A stretch of 64,000 bases of DNA from Micromonospora pallida (lineage in GTDB: Bacteria > Actinomycetota > Actinomycetes > Mycobacteriales > Micromonosporaceae): assembly GCF_900090325.1 (NCBI RefSeq), contig NZ_FMHW01000002.1, positions 1,860,001-1,924,000 on the forward strand, written 5' to 3'. Under the pieces are notes generated by a model. That model did no database searches. It saw nothing but the letters and a program-made list of their open reading frames with translations, and was not told where the DNA came from. A program made the position numbers and the translations under genes. Positions 10,902 to 57,266 of the stretch are shown here, one piece after another; within the stretch, counting starts at the first letter, position 1; the number at the start of each line of letters is the position of its first letter.

Positions 10902-10922
10902 TCGTCCTCCAGACACGCGTGC

Positions 10923-10970: not shown

Positions 10971-11087
10971 TCAGTCGCAGGACGTGACCGACAGCGAGCT
11001 GCCCTCGCAGAGGAGCAGGCTCAGCCCGCTGGCGCCGCCGTGGCCGCCGCCGCCCGTCTCCAGGGCCTGCAGGTCCAGAAGCGTCAT
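10971..11087 (-). CDS. amfS: SapB/AmfS-like class III lanthipeptide precursor
   Basis: A 38-residue peptide. The leader starts MTLLDLQALE, matching the LLDLQ motif shared by RamS/AmfS leaders, which binds the class III synthetase. A Gly-rich linker follows. The core SGLSLLLCEGSSLSVTSCD contains two Ser-x2-Ser-x3-Cys units (Ser20/Ser23/Cys27 and Ser30/Ser33/Cys37), the substrate pattern for labionin or lanthionine rings, and resembles SapB. The ATG overlaps the synthetase stop (ATGA), and a very strong AGGAGGTGATT ribosome site lies just inside the synthetase end. SapB-like peptides act as extracellular surfactants for aerial growth. Too short for usual gene finders. Confidence 0.93.
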   Translation of the reverse strand: MTLLDLQALETGGGGHGGASGLSLLLCEGSSLSVTSCD

Positions 11088-13732: not shown

Positions 13733-13928
13733 CGTCTGACCTCCTTCCATGTCCCGGGCCGGTCCTCGTTCCCGGCGATGCATCGAGTCTCGTGGACGGG
13801 ACAGTGTCGGCTCCAGTGCGCTTAGTCACGACGGCGAATGCGCTGCGCACGGGTACTCATGACAAAAGTCAGCCCGCAGCCGTGCGGGCATCCAGAAACC
13901 GCCCGTCGAACGGCGTGGAGACAGACCG

Positions 13929-19507: not shown

Positions 19508-19530
19508 GTATCCACGGAAGGAAGCTGTTG

Positions 19531-20484
19531 ATGACAGCGGCGTATCGGACGATGCTGCGGATCCGGGTCCTCGAGGAGCGGATCATCGAGTCCGCCAACC
19601 GGGGCGAGGTCGTGGGGTTCGTGCACCCGTACACCGGCCAGGAGGCGGTCGCGGTCGGTGTGCTCGCGGCCCGCCGGCCGGACGAGTGGGTGGTCAGCTT
19701 CTACCGCTGCCACGGGCACGCCGTGGCGGCCGGCCTTCCCCTCGACGGGATCGTCCGGGAGATCCTCGGCCGCTCCGGCGGCCTCTGCGGGGGCAAGGGC
19801 GGCTCCATGCACCTGGCCGACCGGAACCGGCACTTCCTCGGCGCCAGTTCGATCGTCGGCAGCCAGCTTTCCATCGCCGCCGGCGTGGCCCTGGCGGAGA
19901 AGACCACCGCCGAGGGGCGGGCCACCGTCGTCTTCTGCGGCGACGGCGCGCTCGGCACCGGCGTCAGCTTCGAGACCCTCACCATCGCGGCCACCCTCGG
20001 CCTGCCCCTCGTCCTGGTCTGCGAGGACAACGGCTGGCAGGACCAGACCCGCAGCGAACTGGTCCGGCATCGGACCACGACGGAACTCGTGGCGGGACTC
20101 GGCATCGACCACCTCGAGGTCGACGGCAACGACGTCGAGGCGGTCCACCGGGCCGCCGGGGAGCTGCTGGCCCGGTGCCGACGTGACCGCCGTCCCCAGG
20201 TGCTGGTGGCCCACACCTACCTGCGTCACTACCACGCGCAGGTTGGCGGGGCCCGGCCCGCCGAGTACCGGCCGGCGGACGAGGTCGCCTACTGGCGGGC
20301 ACACGACCCGCTCGACATCGCCGCCGCCCGAGCCGGCCTGGGCGACGACTGGCGAACCGCGCGGTACGCCGAGACGGTCCAGGAGATCGACGAGGTCTTC
20401 ACCGCCGCCCTGGCTGCCCCACTGCCGGACCCGGCCACGGCCGGCGGCAACGTCACCACCGAGCCGGTGGCGGTGACCCGGTGA
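19531..20484 (+). CDS. TPP-dependent 2-oxo acid dehydrogenase E1 alpha-like subunit
   Basis: A 317-residue subunit of a thiamine-diphosphate enzyme. The TPP/Mg motif is visible as GDGALGTGVSFETLTIAATL through CEDNGW (about residues 130-165). It also has the RCHGHAVAAG region and GGKGGSMHL, which place it in the E1 alpha family that decarboxylates 2-oxo acids. Its beta partner overlaps by 4 bases (GTGA), but no E2 lipoyl acyltransferase or E3 is nearby, so it is unlikely to be a classical dehydrogenase complex. It may be an acyloin or carboligase-type enzyme in secondary metabolism. GGAAGGAAG lies six bases before the ATG. A TnpB element sits immediately upstream. Confidence 0.85.
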   Translation: MTAAYRTMLRIRVLEERIIESANRGEVVGFVHPYTGQEAVAVGVLAARRPDEWVVSFYRCHGHAVAAGLPLDGIVREILGRSGGLCGGKGGSMHLADRNRHFLGASSIVGSQLSIAAGVALAEKTTAEGRATVVFCGDGALGTGVSFETLTIAATLGLPLVLVCEDNGWQDQTRSELVRHRTTTELVAGLGIDHLEVDGNDVEAVHRAAGELLARCRRDRRPQVLVAHTYLRHYHAQVGGARPAEYRPADEVAYWRAHDPLDIAAARAGLGDDWRTARYAETVQEIDEVFTAALAAPLPDPATAGGNVTTEPVAVTR

Positions 20485-21467
20485 CCCGGCGGCATCCGGT
20501 GGGCTCGGCCGTACGGGCGGCGCTGACCGAGCAGCCCGACCTGCACATGTTCTGCACCTACCAACAGCCTGACCTGATCGAGCTGTTCGGGGCCGACCGG
20601 ATGGTCCGGCTGCCGATCGCGGAGAACGCGATGGTCGGGATGGCCGTCGGCATGGCGCTGGTCGGGCGACGGGTCCTGGTGAGCATCGCCCGGGTCGCCT
20701 TCCTCTTCACCGCCTTCGACCCCCTGGTCAACCAGGCCACCAAGTGGCGGTACATGTCCGACGGGCAGTTCTCCGTGCCGCTGGTGATCCGGGGGCTGAC
20801 CCGGGGCGACGAGCACCTCGGCGCCCAGCACGAGCACAGCGCCCACTCGATGCTCAGCCAGATCCCCGGCCTGGTGGTCGCTGTGCCGAGTTCACCGAAC
20901 GCGGCGGCCGGGCTGCTCGCCACCGCGCTGCGGCATCCCGACCCGGTGGTGGTGCTCGAGTCGCCCCGGCTCTACACGCCGGACTGGGCGGACCTGCCCG
21001 AACCGGAGGCCACCCCGGCCCCGCTGCCGTTCGGGGTGGCCGGCCGGGCCCTGGCCGGCCGGGACCTGACCCTGGTGGGCATCGGCAACACCGTGGCCCT
21101 CTGCCTGCGCGCCGCCCGCCGGCTCGCCGACCACGGACTGCGCTGCCAGGTGGTCGACCTGCGTACCGCCGCCCCGTTGGACCGCGACGGCACCGCCGAG
21201 CTGGTGACCGGTCCGGTGGTGCTGGTGGACGAGGAGCCGCGCGCGTCCTCCCTCCTGTGTGACCTCGGCCTGCACCTGGTCCAGGTGGGGGCGGTCGAGC
21301 CGGACCGCCTGGCGTTCGTGTGCGGCGCGCCGGTGCCCGCGCCCGCGAGCCCGGTGCTGCTGGCGCCCCTGCTGCCCACGGTCGACGACGTGACGGAGGC
21401 GGCCCTCGCCCTCGTCCGGCGGCGGTACCCGGAGGCCGGGCGGACGCCCGTCGCCGGCTCGCACTGA
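20481..21467 (+). CDS. TPP-dependent 2-oxo acid dehydrogenase E1 beta-like subunit
   Basis: A 328-residue E1 beta/transketolase C-terminal type subunit that would complete the active site of the alpha subunit encoded just upstream. The pyrimidine-binding half shows RLPIAENAMVGMAVGMAL with the conserved Glu that activates TPP, and GAQHEHSAHSML. The C-terminal transketolase domain includes DLTLVGIGNTV and DLRTAAPLDRDG. The GTG overlaps the alpha stop by 4 bases. The class III aminotransferase follows 56 bases later, so the operon probably makes a keto product that is then aminated. This is an inference from gene order. Confidence 0.85.
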   Translation: MTRRHPVGSAVRAALTEQPDLHMFCTYQQPDLIELFGADRMVRLPIAENAMVGMAVGMALVGRRVLVSIARVAFLFTAFDPLVNQATKWRYMSDGQFSVPLVIRGLTRGDEHLGAQHEHSAHSMLSQIPGLVVAVPSSPNAAAGLLATALRHPDPVVVLESPRLYTPDWADLPEPEATPAPLPFGVAGRALAGRDLTLVGIGNTVALCLRAARRLADHGLRCQVVDLRTAAPLDRDGTAELVTGPVVLVDEEPRASSLLCDLGLHLVQVGAVEPDRLAFVCGAPVPAPASPVLLAPLLPTVDDVTEAALALVRRRYPEAGRTPVAGSH

Positions 21468-21523
21468 CCGGCGTCGACCGTACGGCGCCCCACCGGGGGC
21501 GGCACCAACTGGGAGGGAATCAG

Positions 21524-22810
21524 ATGACTTCGGAATTTCCCGCGGACTACGCGGTGTGGCACGGCCTGTCGCCGATGACGGACTTCTTCCGGGACGCGGA
21601 CCCGGGCCAGTTCCTGGTGTCGGGATCGGGCAACCACGTCACCGACGCGGCCGGGCGTCGCTACCTGGACGCCCGTTCGTCCATGTGGAACCTGACGCTG
21701 GGCCATTCCTGCGACCCGGTGAAGGAGGCGATGCGCCGGCAACTGGACACGCTCCCCTCGGGCACCGTGATGCGGTACGAGCATCCCCCGGTGGTGGCCG
21801 TCGAGTACGCCGCCCGCCTGGCCGCCCTGATGCCGGCGCCGCTGCGGCACGTCCGGTTCGGCAACACCGGCAGTCAGATGACCGAGGCCGCGGCGATGCT
21901 CTCCCGCTTCCACCGTCGGATGACCGGGCAGCCCGACCGGCGGCACGTCATCGCCGTGCACAACGGCTACCACGGCACCGGTCCGCTGGCCACCGCGTTG
22001 ACCGGTGAGCCGATCCTGCACGAGTGGTCCGCCCCGCTGGACGGGTACGTCCGCCACGTCACGGCGCCGACGCTGCCGGAGGTCCTCGCGCTGGTCGAGG
22101 AGATCGGCGTGGAGCAGGTCACCGCCGTCCTGGTGGAGCCGGTGCTCGGCAGCGCCATCGGCGCGGTCTCTTTGCCGTTCCTGGAGTCGTTGGTCACCGA
22201 GTGCCGGGCGCGGGACATCCACGTCATCGTGGACGAGGTGACCACCGGCGCCGGCCGGACCGGGACCATGACGGTGAGCGAACGTCTGCCGGTCGCCCCC
22301 GACATGGTGGTGCTCGGCAAGGGACTGAGCGCCGGGTACTTCCCGCTGGCCGCGCTCGTGGTGGCCACGCCGATCTTCGACGCGCTCGCCGACCCGCCCC
22401 TGCGGCTGGGCTTCCCGAACGGCTCCACCACCGACGGGCACCCGCTCGGGATGGCCGCCGGGCTCGCCGTCCTGGACGTGCTCAGCGCCGACGGGTTCCT
22501 GGCGGAGGTCCGGGAGACCGGCCGGCACCTGGTCGAACTGCTCACCGGCCTGGCCGGCGAGCCGGGGGCGGGTTCGGTCGACGGTGAGGGGATGATGCTC
22601 GCGCTGGGACTCGTCCACGACGACGGCTCCCCCTGGTCGGTCCGGGAGGTGAACCGGTTCCGGCTGACCTGCCGCGACCACGGCCTGCTGACCAGCTACG
22701 CGGCGGGGTTCCTGCCGCTGATGCCGCCGTTGACGCTGTCCCGCGCCGAGTGCGCGGAACTGGTCGACCGCCTCCGGGCCGCGCTGCGCGCCCACAAGGT
22801 CGACAACTGA
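21524..22810 (+). CDS. Class III PLP-dependent aminotransferase
   Basis: A 428-residue fold-type I aminotransferase. The PLP Asp is in VIVDEVTTGAGRTG, the Schiff-base Lys is in VVLGKGLSAGYFPLAA (about residue 268), and the substrate/PLP region HNGYHGTG precedes them. Class III members transfer amino groups to ketones or terminal aldehydes (omega-transaminases, DAPA, GABA types); the substrate here is unknown. GGGAGGG lies six bases before the ATG. It is the last gene of the E1 alpha/beta operon and ends just before a palindromic repeat that also terminates the opposing exporter gene. Confidence 0.9.
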   Translation: MTSEFPADYAVWHGLSPMTDFFRDADPGQFLVSGSGNHVTDAAGRRYLDARSSMWNLTLGHSCDPVKEAMRRQLDTLPSGTVMRYEHPPVVAVEYAARLAALMPAPLRHVRFGNTGSQMTEAAAMLSRFHRRMTGQPDRRHVIAVHNGYHGTGPLATALTGEPILHEWSAPLDGYVRHVTAPTLPEVLALVEEIGVEQVTAVLVEPVLGSAIGAVSLPFLESLVTECRARDIHVIVDEVTTGAGRTGTMTVSERLPVAPDMVVLGKGLSAGYFPLAALVVATPIFDALADPPLRLGFPNGSTTDGHPLGMAAGLAVLDVLSADGFLAEVRETGRHLVELLTGLAGEPGAGSVDGEGMMLALGLVHDDGSPWSVREVNRFRLTCRDHGLLTSYAAGFLPLMPPLTLSRAECAELVDRLRAALRAHKVDN

Positions 22811-22838: not shown

Positions 22839-22914
22839 TGATCGACTCCGTTTCGGCGAAGTGGGGCTGTCCAGAAAACCGGAGGCCCCCGTTTCGGCGG
22901 TACGGAGTCGATCA
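22839..22914. repeat. Palindromic dispersed repeat acting as bidirectional terminator
   Basis: The 12-bp arm TGATCGACTCCG (22839-22850) is inverted perfectly at 22903-22914. Between them is CGTTTCGGCGAAGTGGGGCT, which is nearly identical to sequence at 44401-44432 (CGTTTCGGCGATGTGGCGCT). The right arm contains the stop codon of the minus-strand MFS gene. This is a member of a dispersed repeat family that here separates convergent genes. Confidence 0.7.
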
Positions 22915-24263
22915 GGCCCGGTCGCCCGCCGGCTCCCCGGCCGGGCTGGCGGCGGGGTCGTCCGTGTCGGTCCGGTGCCGGATCCGGCCGGTGACCGTGG
23001 CCGTGCCGGCGAGGGCGAGCAGGGCGAAGCCGGTGAGGGTTCCCGGCAGCCCCCAGAGGCCGGCGGTCACGCCACCGACCAGCGCCCCCACCGGTACGGC
23101 CAGGATGGACACCGTCCGGCTGAACGCGATGACCCGTCCGAGCCGCTCGGTCGGCACCAGCCGCTGCTGGAGGGTGGCCGACGCCACCGACCAGACCGTG
23201 GCGCAGTACCCGAAGATCAACTCGTAGACGACGAAGAGCAGCAGCGGGGCGGCCAGCGACGCGGCCGGGATGAGCAGCAGCGAGCCGGCCGCGACCGGAG
23301 CGAACAGGGCGATCGACCGGTGCAGGCCGAGCCGGCCGACCACCCGACGGGCGGTGGCCACGGCGGTCAGCGCCGCCGCGCTGTTCACCCCCCACAAGGC
23401 CCCGACCTCGAACGGACTCAGCTCCAGCGTCCGGTACGCGTACAGGGTGTACAGGGCGCCGAGGCCGGCCCCGCCGATGTTCAGCGCGGCGGTGGCGAGG
23501 GCGAGCCGGCCCAGCAGCGGGACCTCCCGGAAGGTGCCCAGACCCTCCCGCAACGAGGCCCGCAGGTCCCTCGCCGACCGGCGCAGCGCCTCCCGGCGGG
23601 GCACCGGGGCGGTGACCGCTGGCCGTTCGGGGCCTGGCGACCTGCCCCGCGTAGCCGGCTGAAGGCGACGGCCGAGACGAGATAGCTGACCGTGTCGACG
23701 GCGATGGCCAGCGCCGCACCGAGCGCCTGCACGAGCAGTCCGCCGATGGCCGGCCCGGCGATCTGGCCGGTCGCCCGGGCCCCGGCGAGGGCGGCGTTCG
23801 CGCCGACCAGCCGGTCCGCCGGCACGAGCCGGGGCAGCACCGCGTTGATCGAGATGTCGGTGACCCCGGCCAGGATGCCGGAGCACGCCGCGACCACCAC
23901 CAGGTACGGCAGGCTGAGCACGTCGAGCAGGTACATCGCCGGCACCGAGGCGACCACGAGCGCGTGCAGCAGGTCGTTGGCGATCAGCAGTCGGCGGGGT
24001 GAGCGGACGTTGTCGATGAGGACGCCGACCAGCGGTGCGGTGAACCCCCGGGCGCCGTACTCCAGGGCGAAGATCAGTGCCGCCGCGACCGGCCCGGCGT
24101 CCAGCAGCAGCACGGCCAGGGTGGGTAGCGCCAGCGCGGTGACGTGGGTGCCGGTGAGGCTGATGAGCTGCGCCACCACCAGCGGACGAAGCGCGGACCG
24201 GTCGGGGGAGGGGGCCGTTGACACGGGGCACACCGGACCTCCCGAGGTGGTGGACCCGGTCAC
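22912..24263 (-). pseudogene. MFS exporter, frameshifted
   Basis: A major-facilitator transporter split between two frames. The N-terminal six-helix half begins at the GTG at 24263, which overlaps the P450 stop by 4 bases (RPLVVAQLISLTGTHVTALA, then DNVRSPRRLLIANDLLHA) and reads into AVAFSRLRG. The C-terminal half continues in another frame from ALRRSARDLRASLREGLGTF to the end. The switch falls at the run 23645-23648. Adding one G on the coding strand restores one continuous frame of about 450 residues. It is either a homopolymer sequencing error or inactivation. Position in the radical SAM/P450 operon suggests export of the product. Confidence 0.8.
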
Positions 24264-25459
24264 CAGGTGACCGGCAGCTCGCGGGGTCCACGCAGGACGG
24301 TGCCGGCCTTCCAGGACACGCTACCGGGCGGCACGGCCAACCTGAGGGTCGGCACCCGTTCCCGCAGGGCGGCCAGCGCCTCGTGTAGCTCCATCGTGGC
24401 GAGTCGGGCGCCCAGGCAGCGGTGCGGTCCCCAACCGAAGGCCAGGTGGGGTTCTGGGTCCCGGTCCAGCCGGAAGGTGTCGGCCTCCGGGAACGCCTCC
24501 TCGTCCCGGTTGCCCGAGATGGTGGAGACGAAGACCGCCTCGCCCGCGCGGACGGTCACCCCGTCGAACTCGACGTCCTCGAGCGCTACCCGGGACAGCC
24601 CGGTGCCGCCGTTGAGGGGCACGAACCGCAGTAGCTCCTCGACCGTGGTGGCCATCCGGTCCGGCTCGGTGACCAGGTCCTCCCAGAGCCCGGGACGGGT
24701 CAGCAGCAGGTACGTCGAGCTGGCGATGTGGCTGGCGGTGGTCTCGAACCCGGCGGCCAGCAGGGTCACCCCGAAGGCGAGCAACTCCTGCTCCGTCAGG
24801 CGACTGCCATCGTCGCGGGCCGAGACCAGGGCGCTGAGCAGATCGTCGGTCGGCTGCTCACGGCGCTGCCGGATGAGGTCCCGCAGGTAGGCCTCCAGCG
24901 CGTCGACCACCGCCCGGAACTCCTCCGCCGTGATCTTCCGCAGCGCGAGCAGGGACTCGGTCCACCGGCGGAACTCGGTCTGGTCGGCGAGCGGCACACC
25001 CAGCGTCCGACAGATCACGGTCATCGGCAGCGGCAGCGCGAGGGCCTGCGTCAGGTCCGTCGGCGGCCCCTGCCGGAGCATGTCGTCGATCAGTCCGTGG
25101 GCCACCTCGCGCACGTACGGCCGTAGCCCGTCGATGCGCCGTTCGGTGAACGCCACCGCCACCAGCCGGCGCAGCCGTCCGTGTTCCGGCCGGTCGACGT
25201 CCATGATGGTGCTGACGAAGGGCGGGTCCGGGGTCTGCCGGGGCACGTCCGGCGCCATCGCCGCCGCCCGGCTGAACCGGGGGTCCGTCATCACCTTGCG
25301 GACGTCGCGGTAGCCGGTGGCCAGCCACGCCTCGCCGGCGTACGGCAGCCGGACCCGGATCAGCGTGCCGCCGCGCCGCGCCGCGTCGAGCTGGGGACTG
25401 AGGCCCAGCTCGGCGTAGTCGAGGAACGGATAGTCGGGCGTCTGGTCGGTGGGACGCAC
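24260..25459 (-). CDS. Cytochrome P450
   Basis: A 399-residue soluble bacterial P450. The oxygen-binding I-helix reads AAGFETTASH, the K-helix ExxR is EELLRF, and the haem loop FGWGPHRCLGARLA places the axial Cys at 348. It should hydroxylate or cross-link a substrate with electrons from ferredoxins encoded elsewhere. The I-helix has Glu-Thr-Thr after Gly-Phe, normal for activity. The GTG start has AAGGAG eight bases upstream. It follows the radical SAM maturase and its partner protein on the same strand and overlaps the exporter start. Tailoring of a ribosomal peptide is therefore the favoured but unproven role. Confidence 0.92.
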   Translation of the reverse strand: MRPTDQTPDYPFLDYAELGLSPQLDAARRGGTLIRVRLPYAGEAWLATGYRDVRKVMTDPRFSRAAAMAPDVPRQTPDPPFVSTIMDVDRPEHGRLRRLVAVAFTERRIDGLRPYVREVAHGLIDDMLRQGPPTDLTQALALPLPMTVICRTLGVPLADQTEFRRWTESLLALRKITAEEFRAVVDALEAYLRDLIRQRREQPTDDLLSALVSARDDGSRLTEQELLAFGVTLLAAGFETTASHIASSTYLLLTRPGLWEDLVTEPDRMATTVEELLRFVPLNGGTGLSRVALEDVEFDGVTVRAGEAVFVSTISGNRDEEAFPEADTFRLDRDPEPHLAFGWGPHRCLGARLATMELHEALAALRERVPTLRLAVPPGSVSWKAGTVLRGPRELPVTW

Positions 25460-25555
25460 CGGGCTGCTCCTTCCGGTTCGCGTGGCATCCGGGTCAACGC
25501 CGTCACGCCCGGTCCGTCAGGTGCCGGACGCGGGTCGGCGGGACGCGGCGGGCGG

Positions 25556-26137
25556 TCAGATGGCCAGGTACGGCACCGGCCAGTGGCGCAGCCGGTAGGG
25601 CAGGACCAACAGCCGTTGCCCGGCCCGGAGCAGCAGCCCCGCCTCGGCAACGGTGTCGACCAGGTCCTGGGCGTCCGGGGCCAGCTCGGCCAGGGTGCGC
25701 GCCTCGGCCATGGCGAGGAAGTGGTCGGCGCCCTCGTCGATGGTGAGCCGGGCGTCCTCGCTCTCCGGCCGGACGTCCTTGATCGAGACGAAGCCGGGAC
25801 CGCGCCGGTAGAAGAAACTGCCGTACCGGTATCCGGCGGTCCACGCCGTGGCGTGGGCGGCGCTGTCCGCGTCCACCCCGCCGGAGGGGGCCACCAGGTG
25901 CACGTGGGTGTGCAGCGGGAAGCACGGCAGGCCGGCGAGCCGCCAGCGCAGCCGTACCGCGTGGCTGGTGACGTCGCGCAGGTAGCGCAGCAGCTCCAGG
26001 TCCTCGGCCGGGGAGCGGCCGAAGTGGAGCACGGTGTCCGCGTCCACCGTGCGGTAGGTGAGCTCCGGCGTGATCGGCGGGAGGTCCAGGGCCGTGACCG
26101 CGTCGGTGTCGGGCGGGTTCGTCGTCGGCATGGTCAT
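25556..26137 (-). CDS. Small partner protein of the radical SAM RiPP maturase (DUF5825-like)
   Basis: A 193-residue protein with no recognisable catalytic motif. I recall similar proteins being listed as DUF5825 next to RiPP radical SAM methyltransferases, but I cannot verify this. Visible features are LPPITPELTYRTVDADTVLH, a HTHVHLVAPSGG segment and a predicted beta-rich middle ending FYRRGPGFVSIKDVR. Its ATG overlaps the radical SAM stop (ATGA), implying tight co-translation. A substrate-recognition or chaperone role, for example an RRE-like leader binder, is an inference. Structure prediction would show whether a winged-helix RRE fold is present. Confidence 0.75.
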   Translation of the reverse strand: MTMPTTNPPDTDAVTALDLPPITPELTYRTVDADTVLHFGRSPAEDLELLRYLRDVTSHAVRLRWRLAGLPCFPLHTHVHLVAPSGGVDADSAAHATAWTAGYRYGSFFYRRGPGFVSIKDVRPESEDARLTIDEGADHFLAMAEARTLAELAPDAQDLVDTVAEAGLLLRAGQRLLVLPYRLRHWPVPYLAI

Positions 26138-27978
26138 CCCACCTTGATCGGAATGGCGTTGGTGGCGAGGCCGATCCACTGTCCGTTCTCGACGAAGACC
26201 AGGCCCTGCGCGGCGAATCCGGACAGGATCTCGCGCACCTCCGCCTGGTCGACGGCGAAGCCGGCGGTGGTGACCTCCCGGTGCAGCGCGGGCAGGGTCC
26301 GGCCGGGCTCGGCCGCCCGGTACACCGCCCGGTGCAGCGGGTCGGTGACCCGGTGGTCGGTGACCGGCCACCCCACCCGGCGGTCCTCGAAGACAGTCGC
26401 GTCCGGTTCCTCGATCCGGACCAGCGTGCTGTCCGGATATCCGGCGTTCCACGCGTCCAGCAGGTCCCGCAGGCGCTTCGCCTCGCCCTCGGAGATGCCG
26501 GCCGGGTCGGTGTCGAAGAGGTAGACCATGTCGTGCACGTCCGCCTCGGGCAGGGCGTACACGTGCCGGTACGCCTGCGCGGTGCGTCGGTTCGGGAAGC
26601 CCAGCGCGGGATTCTCGAAGTAGGGGCTGAACCGCTCCAGCAGGATCCGGGACGCCCCGGCCGGCGGTTGCAGGTGCATCAGCGCCGGGATCTGGCGCAG
26701 CACCGGCTCGTAGTCCTCGACGCGCTCCTCCGGGAAGCCGTAGAGCCAGTTCCAGGTGACGGTAAGGCCGGCGGACTCGCAGTCGCGCAGGGTGCGGACG
26801 TTGCGTGTCCCGGCCACGCCCTTGTCCATGATCTTGAGGACCGGAGACACCAGGCTCTCGATACCGGGCTGGACGTGACTGACCCGGGCGGCCCGGAAGG
26901 TCTCGATCTCGGCCGGCTTCAGGTTGGACTTCACCTCGTAGTGCAGCCGCAGGTCCCAGTCGAGTTCGGTCAGCCGGGGCAGCACGGTGGTGAAGAAGCT
27001 GTTCGCGATGATGTTGTCGACCATGATCAGGTCGAGGGTGTGGTGCCGGCGGGTCAGCTCGCCGATCTCCTGGATCACCGCATCCGGGTCCTTGGCCCGG
27101 AAGGCCATCAGCGTGCCGTTGAGTCCGCAGAAGGTGCAGTGGTGCTTCTCACCCCACCAGCAGCCCCGGGCGGTCTCCAGCACGAGCTTCGGCTCGATGT
27201 GGGCGTTGACCGGGGAGACCTCCATCCGGGTGAACCAGTCGTCGAAGTCGGGGACGGGCACCTGCGCCATCGGCAGCGGCGACGCTTGCGGGTTCTGGTG
27301 CGCCACCCCGGCGTCGTCGCGCCAGCACAGTCCGGGCACGGTGCGCAGGGTGTCCGGCGTGGCGCCGTCGGCGAGGACGCGCAGCAGCGCCGGAAACGTC
27401 TTCTCTCCCTCGCCCCGCAGCACGAGGTCGACGAAGGGGTAGTTGCGGTGCAGCGCCACGCCCATCGGCCCGTCGCAGTTGCCGCCGCCGAAGATGATCG
27501 TCACGTCCGGTCGGCGGGCCTTGATCCGCTGCGCCACGGCCAGGCTCGGCACGTTCTGCATGAAGGTGGTGCTGAAACCGACCACCCGGGGGTGTCGCGC
27601 CAGCACCTCGTCGGTCACCAGCTCGACGAAGTCGTCGGCGTGCTCCCGCATCCGGCTCACCGGTCCGACGTCCAGGCCCCGTTCCGCCGCGTACGCCCGC
27701 AGCGTCTCCACCCCGAAGTCGGGATCGTCGTGCAGGGCGCCGGTGAAGACCCAGTCGCCCAGCCCGTCGAAGAGGCCCTCCTCGGCGACCGCCGTGTACT
27801 CCCGGGGGCCCAGCTCCTCGCCGGTGCGGGTCATCAGGAACTCCGCCCAGCGGAGGTTCGCGTGGTACGTCTCCGGGGTGGGCAGGCCGGCCCGGGTCAC
27901 CGCGGCGCGGAGCAGGCCGAGCGGCAGCGAGGGTGACTCCAGGGACTGCCACGGCATCGCGACGAGGCAAACGGACAC
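26134..27978 (-). CDS. B12-binding-type radical SAM enzyme, RiPP maturation family
   Basis: A 614-residue enzyme. The N-terminal about 230 residues look like a cobalamin-binding domain (VVGFSTTFMQNVPSLA, IIFGGGNCDGPMG, RGEGEKTFPALL). The radical SAM cluster motif is GCWWGEKHHCTFCGLNG with Cys273, Cys281 and Cys284. This CWWG...HCTFCG signature is that of the family annotated as ribosomal peptide maturation radical SAM protein 1, thought to C-methylate or otherwise modify precursor peptides. The GTG has AAAGGAG eight bases upstream. It follows two short precursor genes by 69 bases and a hairpin, and overlaps the partner gene. Its presence defines this locus as a RiPP cluster. Confidence 0.92.
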   Translation of the reverse strand: MSVCLVAMPWQSLESPSLPLGLLRAAVTRAGLPTPETYHANLRWAEFLMTRTGEELGPREYTAVAEEGLFDGLGDWVFTGALHDDPDFGVETLRAYAAERGLDVGPVSRMREHADDFVELVTDEVLARHPRVVGFSTTFMQNVPSLAVAQRIKARRPDVTIIFGGGNCDGPMGVALHRNYPFVDLVLRGEGEKTFPALLRVLADGATPDTLRTVPGLCWRDDAGVAHQNPQASPLPMAQVPVPDFDDWFTRMEVSPVNAHIEPKLVLETARGCWWGEKHHCTFCGLNGTLMAFRAKDPDAVIQEIGELTRRHHTLDLIMVDNIIANSFFTTVLPRLTELDWDLRLHYEVKSNLKPAEIETFRAARVSHVQPGIESLVSPVLKIMDKGVAGTRNVRTLRDCESAGLTVTWNWLYGFPEERVEDYEPVLRQIPALMHLQPPAGASRILLERFSPYFENPALGFPNRRTAQAYRHVYALPEADVHDMVYLFDTDPAGISEGEAKRLRDLLDAWNAGYPDSTLVRIEEPDATVFEDRRVGWPVTDHRVTDPLHRAVYRAAEPGRTLPALHREVTTAGFAVDQAEVREILSGFAAQGLVFVENGQWIGLATNAIPIKVG

Positions 27979-28011
27979 GTCATCGTCTCCTTTCTCGGGC
28001 CGGTCCGGGTG

Positions 28012-28041
28012 GGCCCGGGTGGGCCGGCTTCCACCCGGGCC
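28012..28041 (-). terminator. Hairpin directly after RiPP precursor 1
   Basis: A perfect 11-bp stem (28012-28022 with 28031-28041) and an 8-nt loop lie 6 bases downstream of the precursor stop and about 35 bases before the radical SAM start. It probably attenuates transcription into the enzyme genes or protects the precursor mRNA. Confidence 0.65.
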
Positions 28042-28047
28042 ACTCGG

Positions 28048-28137
28048 TCACTTCTGGGTCTGGGGCCGGTTCAGCGGCACCAGGTACTTGCAGACGCCGT
28101 GGGTCGGCGCCTTCACCTTGACGACAGTGATCTTCAT
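28048..28137 (-). CDS. RiPP precursor peptide 1 (29 residues)
   Basis: A 29-residue peptide beginning MKITVVKVKAPTHGV, then Cys16, Lys, Tyr18, Leu and a Pro/Asn/Gln-rich tail ending in Lys. An ideal ribosome site (AGGAGGTGATT) lies five bases before the ATG, stronger than at most neighbours. The next upstream gene encodes a paralogue with the same first ten residues and the same Thr-His-Gly-Val. Conservation of the N-terminus with divergence afterwards is the leader/core pattern of RiPP precursors. The sites of modification are unknown; Cys16, Tyr18 and the conserved THGV are candidates. Missed by length-limited gene finding. Confidence 0.85.
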   Translation of the reverse strand: MKITVVKVKAPTHGVCKYLVPLNRPQTQK

Positions 28138-28172
28138 CGGAATCACCTCCTCTCCCTGGGACGACAGCAACA

Positions 28173-28277
28173 TCAGCGGGCGGTGGGGGCCGGACGGGCC
28201 CCGTCCCGCCGCGCGAGAACGCAGTGCTGGGAGACGCCGTGGGTCGACGCCTTCACCTTGACGACGGTGATCTTCAT
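28173..28277 (-). CDS. RiPP precursor peptide 2 (34 residues)
   Basis: A 34-residue paralogue of precursor 1, starting MKITVVKVKASTHGV, then Ser16, Gln, His18, Cys19 and an Arg/Ala/Pro-rich tail ending in Arg. GGGAGGTGATC lies just upstream of the ATG. It lies 5 bases after the di-iron protein gene and 35 bases before precursor 1. Thirteen of the first fifteen residues being alternating charged/hydrophobic suggests a beta-strand leader that could pair with a recognition domain. Relative to precursor 1 the Cys has moved by three positions, so the two products should differ. Confidence 0.85.
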   Translation of the reverse strand: MKITVVKVKASTHGVSQHCVLARRDGARPAPTAR

Positions 28278-28282
28278 TCGGA

Positions 28283-29041
28283 TCACCTCCCTTCCTGGAA
28301 ATCGATGTGGATGCCGGCGGCGGCGAGCCGGGCCCGGTGCCGCCGGTGGAACCAGGCCTGAACGCTCGCGGGCTCCCGGCCGGTGTGGGTGGCCAGGGCG
28401 ACCGCGACCTCGTTCAGGCCGGTCAGTCCGATGCCGATGTCGTGCCACTCCTGGGCGTGTTCCGCCCACTCCTCGCGTCCCCGGGGGGTGCGGGTCTCCC
28501 GGGCCAGGAAGTTCAGGCCGATCGCGATGTGTCGGATCTCGTCGCGGCGGACGTGGTGGTACAGCCGTCCCAGCGGGTCGCCGGCGAAGACCTCGCCGAG
28601 CAGGATGAACTCGTCGGCCGCCAGCCCTTCCAGCATGGTGTGCACCAGCGCCCGACCCATGTACGGCAGGCTGGTCAGCCCGTCGTCGAGGGGCTGCATC
28701 GTCTCCTGGGCGTCGGCCGGCTCACCGCCGACCAGCTTGGCGTACCGGTAGAAGGCGTCGGCGTGCCGGGCCTCGTCGGCGGTGGCGAGGGCCAGACTGA
28801 ACCGCAGCGGCGCGTCCTCGGTCTCGACGGCGAGCGTCGCGGCGGCCACCAGCCCGGCCTGTTCGGCGTAGTAGCCGGCGGAGGCCACCCGCCAGGCGCG
28901 CTCGGCGCGTTCCGGGTCGTTGCTGAACTGTCCCTCCTGGAGCACGTCCTCGATCCGCCAGGGGGTCCGGTCCCGGGTGACCTGGAAGATCCGGTACGCC
29001 ACCTCGTCGGCGTCGAGGTCGTCCGGTCGTAGCAGGGTCAT
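28283..29041 (-). CDS. Ferritin-like di-iron protein, probable tailoring oxygenase
   Basis: A 252-residue helical protein with the ligand set of a non-haem di-iron centre: Glu60 (YYAEQ), Glu90-x-x-His93 (ADEARHAD), Glu144 (AADEF) and Glu168-x-x-His171 (RDEIRHIA). Spacing is like ribonucleotide-reductase R2-like or AurF-like oxygenases, not storage ferritin. It is the first gene of the leftward RiPP operon and ends 5 bases before precursor 2, so O2-dependent modification of the peptide is the leading hypothesis. The ATG at 29041 is chosen because GGAGG precedes it by five bases. No pathway is known to me for this combination. Confidence 0.85.
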   Translation of the reverse strand: MTLLRPDDLDADEVAYRIFQVTRDRTPWRIEDVLQEGQFSNDPERAERAWRVASAGYYAEQAGLVAAATLAVETEDAPLRFSLALATADEARHADAFYRYAKLVGGEPADAQETMQPLDDGLTSLPYMGRALVHTMLEGLAADEFILLGEVFAGDPLGRLYHHVRRDEIRHIAIGLNFLARETRTPRGREEWAEHAQEWHDIGIGLTGLNEVAVALATHTGREPASVQAWFHRRHRARLAAAGIHIDFQEGR

Positions 29042-29404
29042 GAGCGCCTCCGTGCGGTGCCGGCCGGATCGTGCGGACCGGCGGCCGGTTGCGACGTCCT
29101 GCCGGAGAGCTTCATCGCAAGTCGGGGGCGGGGGCAGGGTAGCCGGCCACCCATATTCCGGCCCCTCCCGCCGAGCGGGTGTCCGGCCGGGTACCGCGGT
29201 CGGGTGACCGGACGGCAGGGCACCGGAACCCCTGCTGGTCGGCGTCCCGGTGGTGCTCCGTCCGGTGCGTCCGGCAGGGTGAACAAACTGGGTGGCGACC
29301 ACGCAAGGTCAGTGTGTGGACACGGTGGGTGGGTGGTCGACTGGGTGGGCGCAAGCCGCGCATGCCCGTGGACCCACGCCAAAATGATTGATATTTTTCT
29401 ATCC
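29042..29404. other. Divergent control region between RiPP operon and LAL regulator
   Basis: 363 bases with no credible gene. It must carry the promoter of the leftward RiPP operon; a TACCCT on the minus strand near 29139 is the best -10 guess, without a clear -35. The right end is strikingly A/T-rich and contains the regulator promoter at 29369-29397. No strong palindrome operator was seen. Confidence 0.5.
29369..29397 (+). promoter_or_regulatory. Promoter of the LAL regulator, leaderless
   Basis: TGGACC (29369-29374), a 17-bp spacer and TATTTT (29392-29397) are followed 7 bases later by the ATG at 29405, with no ribosome site. The A/T-rich stretch is unusual for this genome. Confidence 0.55.
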
Positions 29405-32332
29405 ATGCCGGTGGGGGTGACGCGACTGGTGGGCCGCACCGACGAGCTGCGCACCCTGGCCAGGACCCTGACCGCCACCCGCGACGGCGGTGGCCGCGCG
29501 GTGTTCCTGGTCGGCGAACCGGGAATCGGCAAGTCCCGGTTGGTCGCCGCGGTCCGGGACCTCGCCGTGGCCGGCGCGACGAGAGTGCTGCACGGCCGGT
29601 CCGCCGTGGTCGGTCAGGCCATCCCGTTGCGACCGCTGCGCGCGGCACTGCTCTCGGTGGCCGGTGACCTGCCGCCGGCCGACCTCACCGCGCTGGGACC
29701 GTACCGGCCCGCGTTGGCCCGGCTGGTGCCGGACTGGGGCGCTCCGCCCGTCGCCGACCAGCCCCGGGAGCCACCCGACCACGACCTGCTGGTGCTCGCC
29801 GAGGGGGTGCTCCGGCTCACCGGGCTGGCCGGTGGCGGCCGGGACTGCCTCCTCGTCCTGGAGGACCTGCACGGCGCCGACGACGCGACCCTGGCCGTGC
29901 TGGACTACCTCGTCGACAACGTCGACCGGCAGCCGACCACCCTGCTCGGCACCCTCCGCGCCGAGCCCGGGCCGGCACTGGACCTGGTCCGCGCGGCGGC
30001 CCGGCGGGGCGTCTGCCGCCTCGTCGAACTCGGCCGGCTCGGTCCGGACGACCTACGCCAGCTGGCCGGCGCCCACCTGGACACCCACCCCGACGAACTG
30101 CCGCAGCCCGCGATCGACCTGCTCTGGGCGGGCAGCGGCGGCAATCCGGGCATCGCCGAGGACGCCCTCGGTGAACTGGTCGACGTCGGCCTGCTGCGGC
30201 CCACCCCCGCCGGGTGGCGGATGGCGCGCGAACGCGCCGACGCGCCGGCGGCCCTGCCGATCCTGACCCGCCCGGTCGACCACCTCGACCCGCGTCGACG
30301 GGAACTGCTGCTGCTGGGGGCGACCCTGGGCCCGGCCTTCCCGCTCGTCGTGCTGCGCCAGGCCATCGGCCGGCCGGACCGGGAACTCCACGATGACCTG
30401 GCCGACGCGACGGTCGCCCGGTTCGTCCGACCGGACGGCCCGACAGCGGACCGGTACCGCTTCGCCCACCCGGTGCTCGGTGCGGCGCTGCTCGCCCGGC
30501 TCGATCCGGCCGAGCGACGTGGCCTCGCCCGACGGGTCGCTGAGGCGGTGGCGACCGCCCACCCGGACCTACCTGGTCCGCACTGCCGGACCGCCGCCGA
30601 CCTGTGGCTCCGGGCCGGCGAACCGGCCACCGCAGGCCGGCTCCTCGCCGAGGCGGGTCGCCGTGCCGTCGACCGGGGCGCCGCCGAGGAAGCGGTCGAC
30701 CTGCTCGAACGGGCCGTCGAGCTGCTCGCCGACGCCGACGCGGCCCGCCGGGGCGCCGTGCTGGAGACCCTGGTCCACGCGCTGACCGAGGCCGGGGCTG
30801 TCGACCGCGCACTCGGTCACGCCGCCGCGCTGGACGAGCTCGCCGACCGGCTCGAACCGGGGCGCCGGGCACGCCTGCACACCGCGCTCGCCTGGGCGGC
30901 GACCACCGCCGGTCTGACCGGTGACGCCCGGCGTCACGTCGAACTGGCCCGTACGCTGCTCGGGCCCGAGGCCGCCGAGCGGGACGCCGCCCCGGTCGAC
31001 GTCGTGGCCGCCCACCTCGCGAACCGGTCCGACCGGTCGGAGGAGACCGTCGGCGTCGAGGCCGCCGCCCGCCGGGCCGAGCGGGTGGGGCGCACCGCCG
31101 GACTGCCGGCCGTCGCCTGGCGGGCCGGCCTGCTGCTCGGCGAACTGGCCCGCCCCCGGGACCCGGCCGAGGCCACCGCCCACCTGAACCAGGCCTGGTC
31201 GGTCGCGGTGCGGCAGCACGTCCCGCTCTGGGAGATGCATTCCCTGGTGCGGCTCGGTGACGACGACGCGTTGCGCACCGGCGACCTCGACCGGCTGGAA
31301 CGGGCCCACCGGAGCGCGGCCCGCGCCGGTGCCGTGCACGCCCGCCACGAGGCGGAGACGCGACTTGCCCTGCATGCCCTCCTCCAGGGGCGGTTCGCCG
31401 CCGCCGACCTGCTCACCGAGCGGATGCTCGCCGCCGGCACCCGCCGCCGGCTGCCGCGCGCCGCCCGGTACGCCCTGCTGCTCCGCGCCACCGCCGCCGC
31501 GCACCAGGGCCGCCACCGCGCGATGACCGACGCGTTGCTCGGGTTCCGCCGGCACGGCGGCGACGCCGCCCGGTACGCCCCCTGGATCCACGGGCTGGCC
31601 CGGGTCTTCGCCGCCCTGCTGCGCGAGGACCGGCCCCGGGCGCTGCACGAGTCGCAGCGCGCCGCCCGGACCGACCGGGACCATCCGACGGTCTGCCCGC
31701 TCGCCGGCCGGCACGGCCTGGACCTGCTGCTGACGGCGGTGAGCGGAGCTGACACGGCCCCGTCCGCTGGACCGGACCCGACCGGCCGGCTGCGGTGGAA
31801 CCAGCAGTTCCGGCTCTTCGCCCGGGCGGTGTGGCACGGCCGGGCCGGGCGCGGGGACGAGGCGACGGAGGCGGTGCGCGAGGCGGTGCGGGCCGCCGCG
31901 CCGTACCCGGTGGCCCGGCACGTCGGCCTCCGCCTGGTCGGCGAGGCCGCCCTGACCGACGGCTGGGGTGAGCCGGTCGAGTGGCTGCGCACCGCCGAGG
32001 AGCACTTCCACCGCACCGGCGTGCCGGCCGTCGCCGCCGCCTGTCGGAGCCTGCTGCGCCGCGCCGGCGACCGCCCTCTCCAGCGTCGGGCCGGGGCCGA
32101 GGACATCCCCGTCGGGCTGCGCGCCACCGGAGTCACCCCCCGGGAGTACGAGGTGCTTCTCCTGCTGGCCGGTCGGCTCAGCAACCGGGAGATCGCCGAC
32201 CGGTTGCACCTGTCCGCCCGCACGGTGGAGAAGCACGTGGCGAGCCTGATCGCCAAGACCGGTCAGCCGGACCGGATCGCGGTGGGTCGGCTCGCCCCGA
32301 CCGGAGCCCCACCGGGCGCCGCACAGGTGTAG
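29405..32332 (+). CDS. Large ATP-binding LuxR-family (LAL) transcriptional regulator
   Basis: A 975-residue regulator. The N-terminal AAA-like domain carries Walker A GEPGIGKS at 37-44 and Walker B LLVLEDLHGADD. A long alpha-helical TPR-like middle follows, then a C-terminal LuxR HTH (VTPREYEVLLLLAGRLSNRE, then LSARTVEKHVASLIAK). LAL proteins usually activate sugar or antibiotic gene clusters. It is divergent from the RiPP operon and is the only regulator near it, so pathway-specific control is a fair inference. The start is at ATG 29405 (MPVGVTRLVGR). ATG 29384 is also in frame, but it would fall inside the promoter. Confidence 0.88.
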   Translation: MPVGVTRLVGRTDELRTLARTLTATRDGGGRAVFLVGEPGIGKSRLVAAVRDLAVAGATRVLHGRSAVVGQAIPLRPLRAALLSVAGDLPPADLTALGPYRPALARLVPDWGAPPVADQPREPPDHDLLVLAEGVLRLTGLAGGGRDCLLVLEDLHGADDATLAVLDYLVDNVDRQPTTLLGTLRAEPGPALDLVRAAARRGVCRLVELGRLGPDDLRQLAGAHLDTHPDELPQPAIDLLWAGSGGNPGIAEDALGELVDVGLLRPTPAGWRMARERADAPAALPILTRPVDHLDPRRRELLLLGATLGPAFPLVVLRQAIGRPDRELHDDLADATVARFVRPDGPTADRYRFAHPVLGAALLARLDPAERRGLARRVAEAVATAHPDLPGPHCRTAADLWLRAGEPATAGRLLAEAGRRAVDRGAAEEAVDLLERAVELLADADAARRGAVLETLVHALTEAGAVDRALGHAAALDELADRLEPGRRARLHTALAWAATTAGLTGDARRHVELARTLLGPEAAERDAAPVDVVAAHLANRSDRSEETVGVEAAARRAERVGRTAGLPAVAWRAGLLLGELARPRDPAEATAHLNQAWSVAVRQHVPLWEMHSLVRLGDDDALRTGDLDRLERAHRSAARAGAVHARHEAETRLALHALLQGRFAAADLLTERMLAAGTRRRLPRAARYALLLRATAAAHQGRHRAMTDALLGFRRHGGDAARYAPWIHGLARVFAALLREDRPRALHESQRAARTDRDHPTVCPLAGRHGLDLLLTAVSGADTAPSAGPDPTGRLRWNQQFRLFARAVWHGRAGRGDEATEAVREAVRAAAPYPVARHVGLRLVGEAALTDGWGEPVEWLRTAEEHFHRTGVPAVAAACRSLLRRAGDRPLQRRAGAEDIPVGLRATGVTPREYEVLLLLAGRLSNREIADRLHLSARTVEKHVASLIAKTGQPDRIAVGRLAPTGAPPGAAQV

Positions 32333-32359: not shown

Positions 32360-33778
32360 GTGGAACTGGTGGAGGAGTCGCCGTACCGGTTCCGGATCGA
32401 CCAGCACGGTGCGATGCGGGTGCCCGGGGTGGTCTTCGCCGCGCGGGCGCTCCTGCCCGACCTGGGCGAGGACCGGTCGCTGGAGCAGGTGGCGAACGTC
32501 GCCACCCTGCCCGGCATCGTCGGCGCCGCCTACGCCATGCCCGACGTGCACTGGGGCTACGGCTTCCCGATCGGGGGCGTCGCCGCCACCGACGTGGCCG
32601 CCGGCGGAGTGGTCTCCCCGGGCGGGGTGGGCTTCGACATCTCCTGCGGGGTACGGCTGCTCGCCGCCGACCTCTCCCGCGACGACTTTCCCCGGCTGCG
32701 GGACGCCCTGCTGGACGGCCTGGACACGGCGATCCCCCGGGGCATGGGCCGGGGCGCGGTGTGGCACCTCGCCGACCGCGCCGAACTGGACGCCGTGCTG
32801 CGCGGCGGTTCCCGGTACGCCGTCGAGCGGGGCCACGGCGTCGGGGCCGACCTGGACCGCTGCGAGGACGGCGGCGCGGTCGACGACGCCGACCCGGCCC
32901 AGGTCAGCGACCGGGCGGTGCAGCGGGGACAGGGGCAGGTGGGCAGCCTCGGCTCCGGCAACCACTTCCTCGAGGTGCAGGCCGTCGACGAGGTGTACGA
33001 CGAGCCGGTGGCCACGGCCTTCGGGCTGCGGGCCGGACAGGTCTGCGTGATGGTGCACAGCGGCTCACGGGGGCTGGGTCACCAGGTCTGCACCGACCAC
33101 GTCCGGGCGATGGAACGGGTCATGCCCCGCTACGGCATCGAGGTGCCGGACCGGCAGTTGGCCTGCGCCCCGGTCGACTCCCCGGCGGGTCGGGCGTACC
33201 TGGGCGCGATGGCCGCCGCCGCCAACTACGCCCGGGCGAACCGGCAACTGCTCGCCGAGGCCGCCCGCCGCGTCTTCGCCCGGGTCGCCGGCGCCCGCCT
33301 CGACCTGGTCTACGACGTGTCGCACAACCTCGCCAAGATCGAGACTCATCCGGTCGACGGGGCGACCCGCCGGGTCTGCGTGCACCGGAAGGGGGCCACC
33401 CGGGCGTTTCCCCCGGGGCACCCCGACCTCCCCGCCGACCTGCGCCCGGTGGGGCAGCCGGTGCTGATCCCCGGCTCGATGGGGACCTCCTCGTACGTGC
33501 TGACCGGGGTGGCCGGCGCACCGGCGTTCGCCTCCACCTGCCACGGCGCGGGTCGGGTCCGCAGCCGGAAGGAGGCCACCCGGACCGTCCGGGGACAGGA
33601 CCTGCGCCACGAGTTGGCGGCCCGGGGCGTCGCGGTGCGGGGCGCGTCCTGGCGGGGGCTGGCCGAGGAGATGCCGGAGGCGTACAAGGACGTCACGGCG
33701 GTGGTCGCCGCGGCCGAGGGCGCTGGACTGTGCCGTCGGGTGGCCCGGCTGGTGCCGCTCGGCGTGGTCAAGGGCTGA
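32360..33778 (+). CDS. rtcB: RtcB-type RNA ligase
   Basis: A 472-residue GTP- and Mn-dependent 3'-phosphate/5'-hydroxyl RNA ligase. Conserved features are [15 protein letters not shown], the metal-binding Cys in [23 protein letters not shown], the HSGSRGLGH loop, and the guanylylated His in STCHGAGR (about residue 395). Relatives ligate tRNA halves or repair broken RNAs. A GTG start 27 bases after the LAL stop is used; GGAGGGG lies 13 bases upstream, which is longer than optimal. The convergent gene beyond encodes archease, the known activator of RtcB, so the pair probably works together. Confidence 0.93.
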
Positions 33779-33836: not shown

Positions 33837-34265
33837 TCAGACGTCCAGGGTCACCGCGCAGGACCAGCCCGTCGCGTCCCGGCCGAACCGCAGGCCGTGC
33901 AGGGCCACCGCCTTCGGCACCGCGCCGACCGCCTCCACCGCGTCCGTGCCGGTCGTGCGCCACCGCACCCGCAGGCCACCGTCGGAGGTGCCGGTCACCT
34001 CGGTCGCCACCGGCAGCGTCCCCTCGGTCTCCAACCGGAAGACCACCTCGTCGAGGACGGCCACCAGCAGGTCCTCGTCGCGGCCCGCCGGCACGTCGAA
34101 CCCGGCTGTCCCGGTCGGCGTGAGCCCGCCGGTGTCGGCGAAACTCGCCACCACGGCGGTCACCGCCTCGGCCAGGCACTCCGCCCGGCTCGGCGCCCAC
34201 GCCTCCACCCGGACGTCGGCGGTGTGCGGCACCCGCCGGTGTCCCCGCGCCGGTCGTCGGTCCAT
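33837..34265 (-). CDS. Archease, RtcB activator
   Basis: A 142-residue archease. Family signs are HTADVRVEAWAPSRAECLAE near the start, the internal Asp/Glu-rich segment ending in LVAVLDEVVFRLE, and the C-terminal AVALHGLRFGRD with a final Asp (VTLDV) that binds metal. Archeases let RtcB turn over many times by helping GTP transfer. The gene converges on rtcB with 58 bases between stops. CATGAT six bases before the ATG and no ribosome site suggest a leaderless mRNA. Confidence 0.88.
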   Translation of the reverse strand: MDRRPARGHRRVPHTADVRVEAWAPSRAECLAEAVTAVVASFADTGGLTPTGTAGFDVPAGRDEDLLVAVLDEVVFRLETEGTLPVATEVTGTSDGGLRVRWRTTGTDAVEAVGAVPKAVALHGLRFGRDATGWSCAVTLDV

Positions 34266-34364
34266 GCCCCGATCATGCCCGCTCGCCCGCCCCGCGTGGC
34301 CCACTCGCCCGTACCGCCGGAGAGGCCGGCACCCGCCGGTACGCCGGCTCCGGGCGGAGCCGCG

Positions 34365-34370
34365 TACGGT
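34365..34370 (+). promoter_or_regulatory. Leaderless -10 element
   Basis: TACGGT lies six bases before the GTG start at 34377 and there is no Shine-Dalgarno sequence. No clear -35 is visible. Confidence 0.4.
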
Positions 34371-34376
34371 GCGCGG

Positions 34377-34982
34377 GTGCGGATCATCAAGTTCACCCAC
34401 GCCTGCGTCCGTATCGAGCACGAGGGGCGGGTGCTGGTCCTCGACCCGGGCACCTGGAGCGAACCGCGAGCCCTGGCCGGCGCGGACGCCGTCCTGGTCA
34501 CCCACGAGCACACCGACCACGTCGACGTGTTGCGCCTGCTCGGGCTGGGCGTCCCGGTGTACCTGCCGGCGGAGGCCCGACTGGACGGCCTCGCCGCGCT
34601 GCCGGTGACCCGGGTCCGTGCCGGGGAACGTTTCACCGCCGCCGGCTTCACCGTGCGCGCCGTCGGCGGCCGGCACGCCACCATCCACGACGGACAACCC
34701 GACTGCGCCAACCTCGGCTACCTCGTCGACGACCGCCTCTACCACCCCGGCGACTCGCTGCACCGGCCGGACGCCCCGGTGGAGACCCTGCTCGTGCCGG
34801 CGCAGGCGTCCTGGCTGAAACTGACCGAGGCGATCGACTTCGCCCGCGCGGTGGACCCGGCGCGGGTCTTCCCGATCCACGACGCCCAGCTCAACGAGCG
34901 CGGCATGGCCAGCGTCAACGGTTGGTTCGGCGAGGCCCTGGGCGGACGCTACCGCTACCTCGCACCCGGCGAGACCGCCTGA
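34377..34982 (+). CDS. Metallo-beta-lactamase-fold hydrolase
   Basis: A 201-residue protein of the UlaG-like metallo-beta-lactamase fold. It begins RIIKFTHACVRIEHEG. The metal motif is LVTHEHTDHVD, with further ligands in GGRHATIH and YHPGDSLH, and a final His in FPIHDAQLNE. Such proteins hydrolyse phosphodiesters, lactones or similar bonds; the substrate is unknown. The GTG at 34377 fits the family's usual RIxKFTHA start. It is co-directional with the next operon but 115 bases away, with a separate promoter between. Confidence 0.85.
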   Translation: MRIIKFTHACVRIEHEGRVLVLDPGTWSEPRALAGADAVLVTHEHTDHVDVLRLLGLGVPVYLPAEARLDGLAALPVTRVRAGERFTAAGFTVRAVGGRHATIHDGQPDCANLGYLVDDRLYHPGDSLHRPDAPVETLLVPAQASWLKLTEAIDFARAVDPARVFPIHDAQLNERGMASVNGWFGEALGGRYRYLAPGETA

Positions 34983-57091: not shown

Positions 57092-57154
57092 GCGCCGCGC
57101 ACGACCGGAGCCTCGGCCGCGTGGTCGGCCGGGCGTTGTGGTTTAGTGCCGGGT

Positions 57155-57250: not shown

Positions 57251-57266
57251 GCTTCTCACGGGTCGG

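Follow-up and report, generated by a model that had tools for sequence, protein, structure and literature searches.

The 64,000-nucleotide window analyzed here, from Micromonospora pallida (RefSeq assembly GCF_900090325.1, contig NZ_FMHW01000002.1, positions 1,860,001 to 1,924,000 of the forward strand), contains a conserved biosynthetic cluster of the ribosomally synthesized and posttranslationally modified peptide (RiPP) type with an unusual enzyme set. Small precursor peptides are encoded beside an R2-like di-iron protein and a B12-binding radical S-adenosylmethionine (SAM) enzyme with its DUF5825 partner, and the cluster is larger than first noted, since genes for the alpha and beta subunits of a thiamine diphosphate (ThDP)-dependent E1 component and for a class-III aminotransferase (AT) travel with it. 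Judging from sequence, we put at roughly 0.6 the probability that the cluster as a whole is best explained by a pathway that would combine C-methylation, di-iron oxidation of the peptide core, an E1 acyl step, and transamination. We found no description of the cluster or its product in the literature searched, where most subscription papers were outside coverage, and the original prediction, made from the DNA letters, had likewise recognized no characterized product. The locus thus represents a RiPP group for which that literature gives no product, in which one enzyme pair is known and the wider gene set is unusual.

The original prediction had described a single leftward operon comprising a di-iron gene, two peptide genes (A1 and A2), a radical SAM gene, a gene for a 193-residue partner, and a P450 gene, and all of these are present at their positions on the minus strand (Table 1). 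The A1 and A2 starts are preceded by strong ribosome sites (GGGAGGTGAT and GGAGGTGAT, respectively), the radical SAM start is preceded by CWWGEKHHCTFCG, and the ATG of the partner gene overlaps the radical SAM stop. The predicted MFS exporter gene is also there, although its reading frame is split in this assembly: the halves lie in different frames, whereas the nearest relative, locus L112, has a single open frame of 486 codons, and the break is either a frameshift or a sequence error. What had been overlooked is the extent of the cluster, with the E1-alpha, E1-beta, and AT genes at 19528-22810.

We compared 114 radical SAM loci with 113 different sequences (L047 and L119 are identical, and both were kept). 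Eighty loci from genome contigs were the best 80 of 524 confirmed. Loci L001, L002, L004, and L081-L093 were left out as repeats or shorter copies of kept loci (L083 and L084 among these rows are remote radical SAM matches of the M. pallida genome itself), as were L107, a repeat of L121, and L173, which has no radical SAM gene. The radical SAM enzyme was found at E <= 1e-100 in 23 of 160 Micromonospora genomes, in 8 of those at 62% identity or more. Searches with the di-iron protein gave 6 matches at 1e-15 among 201 relatives, 16 at 1e-20 among 354 genomes of the family, 3 close matches and otherwise remote ones (1e-8 to 1e-12) among 397 genomes of the order, the genome itself only among 394 genomes of the class, and 2 matches among 327 genomes of the family of G216. 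Because 18 of the 114 loci hold less than 6 kb, and L030 and L054 less than 1 kb upstream, the absence of a distant gene carries little weight in the short loci.

The original prediction had named in advance, as the observation on which it would stand or fall, the conservation of the peptide and its leader beside homologous radical SAM genes in other genomes, and both are conserved. Relatives of A2 with a GxC[KR]Y motif lie upstream of the radical SAM gene in 15 other loci, and the A2-type peptides have M-x-I-[KT]-x-V, G, C, [KR], and Y in common. Codon changes among close relatives are mostly silent (silent/replacing, A2 against L112, 2/0; L113, 2/0; L114, 3/1; L167 against L168, 1/0, and L169, 3/0; L115 against L117, 2/1), and more distant pairs show 5/4 (L166 against L170) and 4/5 (L166 against L167). 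Given this pattern and the relatives in 15 other loci, we conclude that A2 is under selection and is not a chance open reading frame. The two paralogous peptides of the original prediction are therefore both present, but they are not equal partners: A1 keeps THGV without CKY, and it is the weaker claim because it was seen in only one other locus (L112), from which it differs by 1 silent and 8 replacing changes, a fast-changing sequence. Streptomyces loci of the L010-L043 type recurrently carry MEIKKVVVREE...EKRPTR peptides upstream of a TIGR03975 radical SAM gene and a DUF5825 gene, without a di-iron gene; these constitute another precursor family.

The motif and the di-iron gene occur together. 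Among the 114 loci, which are related by descent, 16 have both, 2 have the di-iron gene only, none has the motif only, and 96 have neither, and these counts are the same without the filter on start and ribosome site. E1-alpha and E1-beta genes accompany 15 of the 16 motif loci and none of the 98 others, and an AT gene accompanies 13 of the 16. The complete set (di-iron protein, GxCKY peptide, radical SAM enzyme, DUF5825, MFS, E1-alpha, and E1-beta) is present in 14 loci of Micromonosporaceae, the window among them, of which 13 also have the AT, and E1 and AT identities across these loci are 58 to 93%. Gene order differs, with the E1-alpha/beta-AT genes convergent in the window's group and in line with the MFS gene in other loci. 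On a quick radical SAM tree, 5 changes account for the di-iron label (at least 4 of them forced), compared with a mean of 17.1 after shuffling; motif and di-iron gene are both missing from L003 and from a nested group of 9 rows, all within one clade of 26 rows, and long branches make some placements unsure. Since a ribosomal precursor is conserved with its modifying enzymes, the RiPP assignment of the original prediction holds. The P450 that it had counted in the combination is present in the window but optional, occurring in 7 of the 16 motif loci, and we accordingly set aside P450-driven cross-linking of the kind found in biarylitide-like RiPPs as the defining chemistry.

The radical SAM enzyme scores 572.7 bits against TIGR03975, the model for RiPP maturation radical SAM C-methyltransferases (cut-off, 281.85), which bears out its earlier reading as a B12-type RiPP maturase. 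Its B12-binding domain matches PF02310 at 37.5 bits (cut-off, 32.1), the radical SAM domain PF04055 is also matched, and the CX7CX2C cluster motif is found in all 114 homologues compared. TokK, a B12 radical SAM methylase, was its only PDB sequence match at E <= 0.001 independent of pyruvate dehydrogenase (PDH). The coupled partner was correctly located, and we identified it as a DUF5825 protein (PF19142; 82.2 bits, cut-off 25), so that the pair is not new: a homologous pair is reported to C-methylate clavusporins, and such a pair is also found in YHxYxY clusters (PMC12257519). Given this membership and this homology, C-methylation of the core by the radical SAM/DUF5825 pair would be the best-founded step of the pathway. 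The same genome has a second TIGR03975 locus, L174 (G000:C2:2129320-2131113), with a peptide (MKRRIVRNDPISTGERDRGAVIVKMLLDL...), DUF5825, P450, and MFS-like genes and without a di-iron gene.

The six residues of the di-iron protein listed in Table 1 do not vary among the 49 aligned homologues and make up the ExxH-type ligand set of R2-like ligand-binding oxidases, with ligand roles assigned by motif. The window protein had no Pfam match at 0.01 and scored 16.6 bits against the NCBIfam R2lox model NF006200 (cut-off, 194), which 40 of the 49 members matched at E <= 0.1 (best, 2.7e-12). Pfam matches of the 49 were weak, with DUF455 the commonest (30 members; best, 3.4e-5), together with EncFtn-like (14; best, 2.7e-4). 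Against PDB sequences, the family profile matched R2-type chains at 5e-4 to 5e-3 (6i90, 5e-4; 7qbk, 7e-4), and the top row was an uninformative de novo helix bundle. At E <= 0.001, 98 of 5505 candidates fall into the family (weakest, 1e-38), and one of the 98 has a precomputed Pfam domain (EncFtn-like). Two relatives of 35% identity or less (L173 and L179) have no radical SAM match within the stretch compared.

The ThDP motif GDG...N is present in E1-alpha in all 15 loci aligned. Both subunits score below the PDH E1 cut-offs (alpha, 237.9 versus 393.85 bits; beta, 168 versus 321 bits), and no E2 or E3 gene was noticed beside them. PDH-like E1 pairs have been proposed to attach two-carbon units in avilamycin and paulomycin sugars (PMC4425429), and carboligation by E1-like enzymes is supported by PMC4425429 and PMC7696235. 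Of 160 Micromonospora genomes, 7 have a close relative of the AT, and each of these 7 has the cluster as well (hypergeometric probability of 1.7e-11, ignoring shared descent).

We propose that the radical SAM/DUF5825 pair would recognize the N-terminal M-x-I-K/T-x-V leader half of the 22- to 34-residue precursor and, by analogy with clavusporins, would C-methylate the core, while the R2-like di-iron protein may oxidize the GxC[KR]Y region at Cys, Lys/Arg, or Tyr. The MEIKKVVVREE-type peptides of the di-iron-free Streptomyces loci resemble the leader half of A2 and not its GxC[KR]Y half; a common leader and a distinct core fit a division in which the radical SAM/DUF5825 pair would read the leader and the di-iron enzyme the core. 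The E1 pair would ligate a two-carbon acyl unit onto a peptide carbonyl, or prepare a small acyl or acyloin unit for the peptide, and the AT would then aminate a carbonyl or, conversely, turn an amine (the Lys side chain, for example) into an aldehyde. The P450 could provide optional tailoring and the MFS protein export, with removal of the leader presumably left to an enzyme not among the conserved genes. The site of oxidation, the acyl ligation, the transamination, and this leader removal are inferences; a heavily oxidized, possibly C-methylated product, as earlier envisaged, may result. The more specific version, with the di-iron oxidase acting on the GxC[KR]Y core and the E1 pair forming a C-C bond on the peptide by acyl or acyloin ligation before transamination, all atop B12-radical C-methylation, we put forward tentatively, as possible rather than probable; no described case of ThDP carboligation on a ribosomal peptide was found in the literature searched.

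Several observations weigh against the proposed pathway. Two divergent loci, L008 of Streptomyces and L039 of Pyxidicoccus, have the di-iron gene without the motif; the 18 kb of L172 contain the motif and the di-iron gene but neither E1 nor AT genes; and L114 and L176 have no AT at the locus. Whether the motif has Lys or Arg agrees only loosely with the presence of the AT, with CKY in 14 loci (13 with an AT, L114 without) and CRY in 2, neither with an AT; the Lys as AT substrate was considered and dropped, as the association has too few independent cases. The predicted leader/core boundary is provisional, no leader protease was identified for the cluster, the DUF5825 protein is only 27% identical to its counterpart at a Streptomyces clavuligerus plasmid locus, and the E1 and AT genes could serve another small molecule.

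This last point leads to an alternative in which the E1 pair and AT make an unrelated or separately attached unit and the peptide carries only the C-methyl and di-iron/P450 changes. Except in L176, their genes form a transcription unit of their own in the motif loci that have E1 (14 of 15), and L172 would also agree with such a separation. We nevertheless consider it unlikely, since E1 accompanies 15 of the 16 motif loci and in view of the arrangement of L176, where E1-alpha, E1-beta, di-iron, peptide, radical SAM, DUF5825, and MFS genes are codirectional and E1-beta ends 3 bases from the di-iron start.

In pearlin and 3-thia-amino-acid pathways, a residue is rebuilt on a carrier peptide and set free as a small molecule. 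Such pathways (PMC9303977) are the parallel for a scaffold-peptide alternative, in which the short peptide would be a carrier with one residue rebuilt and then released. This would explain why small-molecule-type enzymes, the E1 pair and AT, are conserved with the peptide, and the tail after the motif is variable, down to 4 residues in L118. Yet the motif lies internally, never at the peptide end, in 16 of 16 loci, and we noticed no gene for a peptide aminoacyl-tRNA ligase, which leaves this alternative slightly less likely still. It is very improbable that the cluster makes a C-methylated surfactant peptide like the clavusporins, with the other genes as accessories: the radical SAM enzyme is 44% identical to the S. 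clavuligerus enzyme, which adjoins DUF5825, but the alternating hydrophobic stretch seen in the S. clavuligerus peptide (SVGITITVPF) is missing from the core, and no S9 peptidase was found among the cluster genes and the 8 neighbors scanned, unlike at the S. clavuligerus locus, which we infer to be clavusporin-like from its name and prolyl oligopeptidase.

Table 1. Genes of the cluster and its flanks in the M. pallida window
Feature	Position	Strand	Remarks
R2-like/ferritin-like di-iron protein, 252 aa	28283..29041	-	E60, E90xxH93, E138, E168xxH171 invariant (49/49)
Paralogous small peptide A1, 34 aa	28173..28277	-	THGVSQHC, altered motif; one relative, L112
Main precursor peptide A2, 29 aa	28048..28137	-	Leader MKITVVKVKA, core region THGVCKY
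B12-binding radical SAM enzyme, 614 aa	26134..27978	-	TIGR03975; PF02310, PF04055
DUF5825 partner protein, 193 aa	25556..26137	-	PF19142
Cytochrome P450, 399 aa, optional member	24260..25459	-	PF00067; heme motif FGWGPHRCLG
MFS transporter, frame interrupted	about 22912..24263	-	N-terminal piece matches MFS_1
ThDP-dependent E1 component, alpha subunit	19528..20484	+	PF00676; GDG...N motif
ThDP-dependent E1 component, beta subunit	20481..21467	+	PF02779/PF02780; conserved with cluster
Class-III (omega-type) AT	21536..22810, start provisional	+	PF00202
Divergent AAA/LuxR regulator	29057..32332, start uncertain	+	PF13191 and GerE

Among the loci with wide flanks compared, the AAA/LuxR regulator accompanies the cluster only in L112-L114. 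Elsewhere in the window, a SapB-like lanthipeptide locus (11087-10971, 11084-13783, and 9177-10916, all on the minus strand) has a RamC-type class III lanthipeptide synthetase, an ABC transporter, and, just after the synthetase gene, a small open reading frame, MTLLDLQALETGGGGHGGASGLSLLLCEGSSLSVTSCD, that has a strong ribosome site. A tRNA-Sec gene (57155-57250, +) occurs with a molybdopterin oxidoreductase and SelA (52426-55020 and 57153-58568, both +), the frame of the oxidoreductase running on upstream across an in-frame TGA at 52315; together they are probably a selenocysteine formate dehydrogenase set. An RtcB ligase with a neighboring archease was also noted (32360-33778, +; 33837-34880, -).

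In the cluster, a B12-radical SAM/DUF5825 pair, of the kind reported to methylate unreactive carbons of peptides, is combined with an R2-like di-iron protein and a ThDP pair. RiPP chemistry would gain two enzyme types if the di-iron and ThDP enzymes do work on the peptide. With a substrate of 22 to 34 residues, few genes, and many homologous loci, the cluster would then offer a compact test system, and the residues to examine first are suggested by the pairing of the motif with the di-iron gene.

The aminopyruvatide (apy) cluster likewise combines a B12-radical SAM enzyme, a P450, and a short peptide, but matches to the ApyD and ApyO models are weak (81 versus 750 and 79 versus 525 bits), short of membership; no SPASM or MNIO domain was matched in the genes scanned, and RiPP assignments of those types were dropped. 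Daptides have a described class-III AT within a RiPP cluster (PMC10036551), and among NCBIfam models the daptide one matches the window AT best, albeit at 252 bits against a cut-off of 450, whereas the oxidative decarboxylase, DUF-RRE protein, and methyltransferase of daptides were not identified in the window. The AviB1/AviB2-type pairs of avilamycin and paulomycin sugars resemble ours as E1-alpha/beta pairs in natural-product clusters (PMC4425429), a comparison by description and not by sequence, but no sugar pathway was identified in the window. With R2-like ligand-binding oxidases and ribonucleotide reductase R2, the di-iron protein shares two ExxH motifs, two further invariant Glu residues, and weak profile matches; at about 250 residues and below the model cut-off, it belongs to a separate family linked to peptide genes. 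With the clavusporin-type pathway (Zhang et al. 2025), the window has in common a TIGR03975 radical SAM gene directly followed by DUF5825, a tiny precursor just upstream, and an MFS gene. The S. clavuligerus locus has a prolyl oligopeptidase (PF00326) beside its radical SAM, DUF5825, and MFS genes, and MpcP, a prolyl oligopeptidase, is named for clavusporins in PMC12951456; no PF00326 match was found in the cluster genes or in the 8 neighbors scanned, a neighbor scan that was not exhaustive. By eye, the S. clavuligerus peptide MQKDVIHNDPLAGDEENRKPSVGITITVPFRNAEDADED and A2 have no common motif, and relative to clavusporin-type clusters the window has another leader and core, together with the additional di-iron, E1-alpha/beta, AT, and optional P450 genes.

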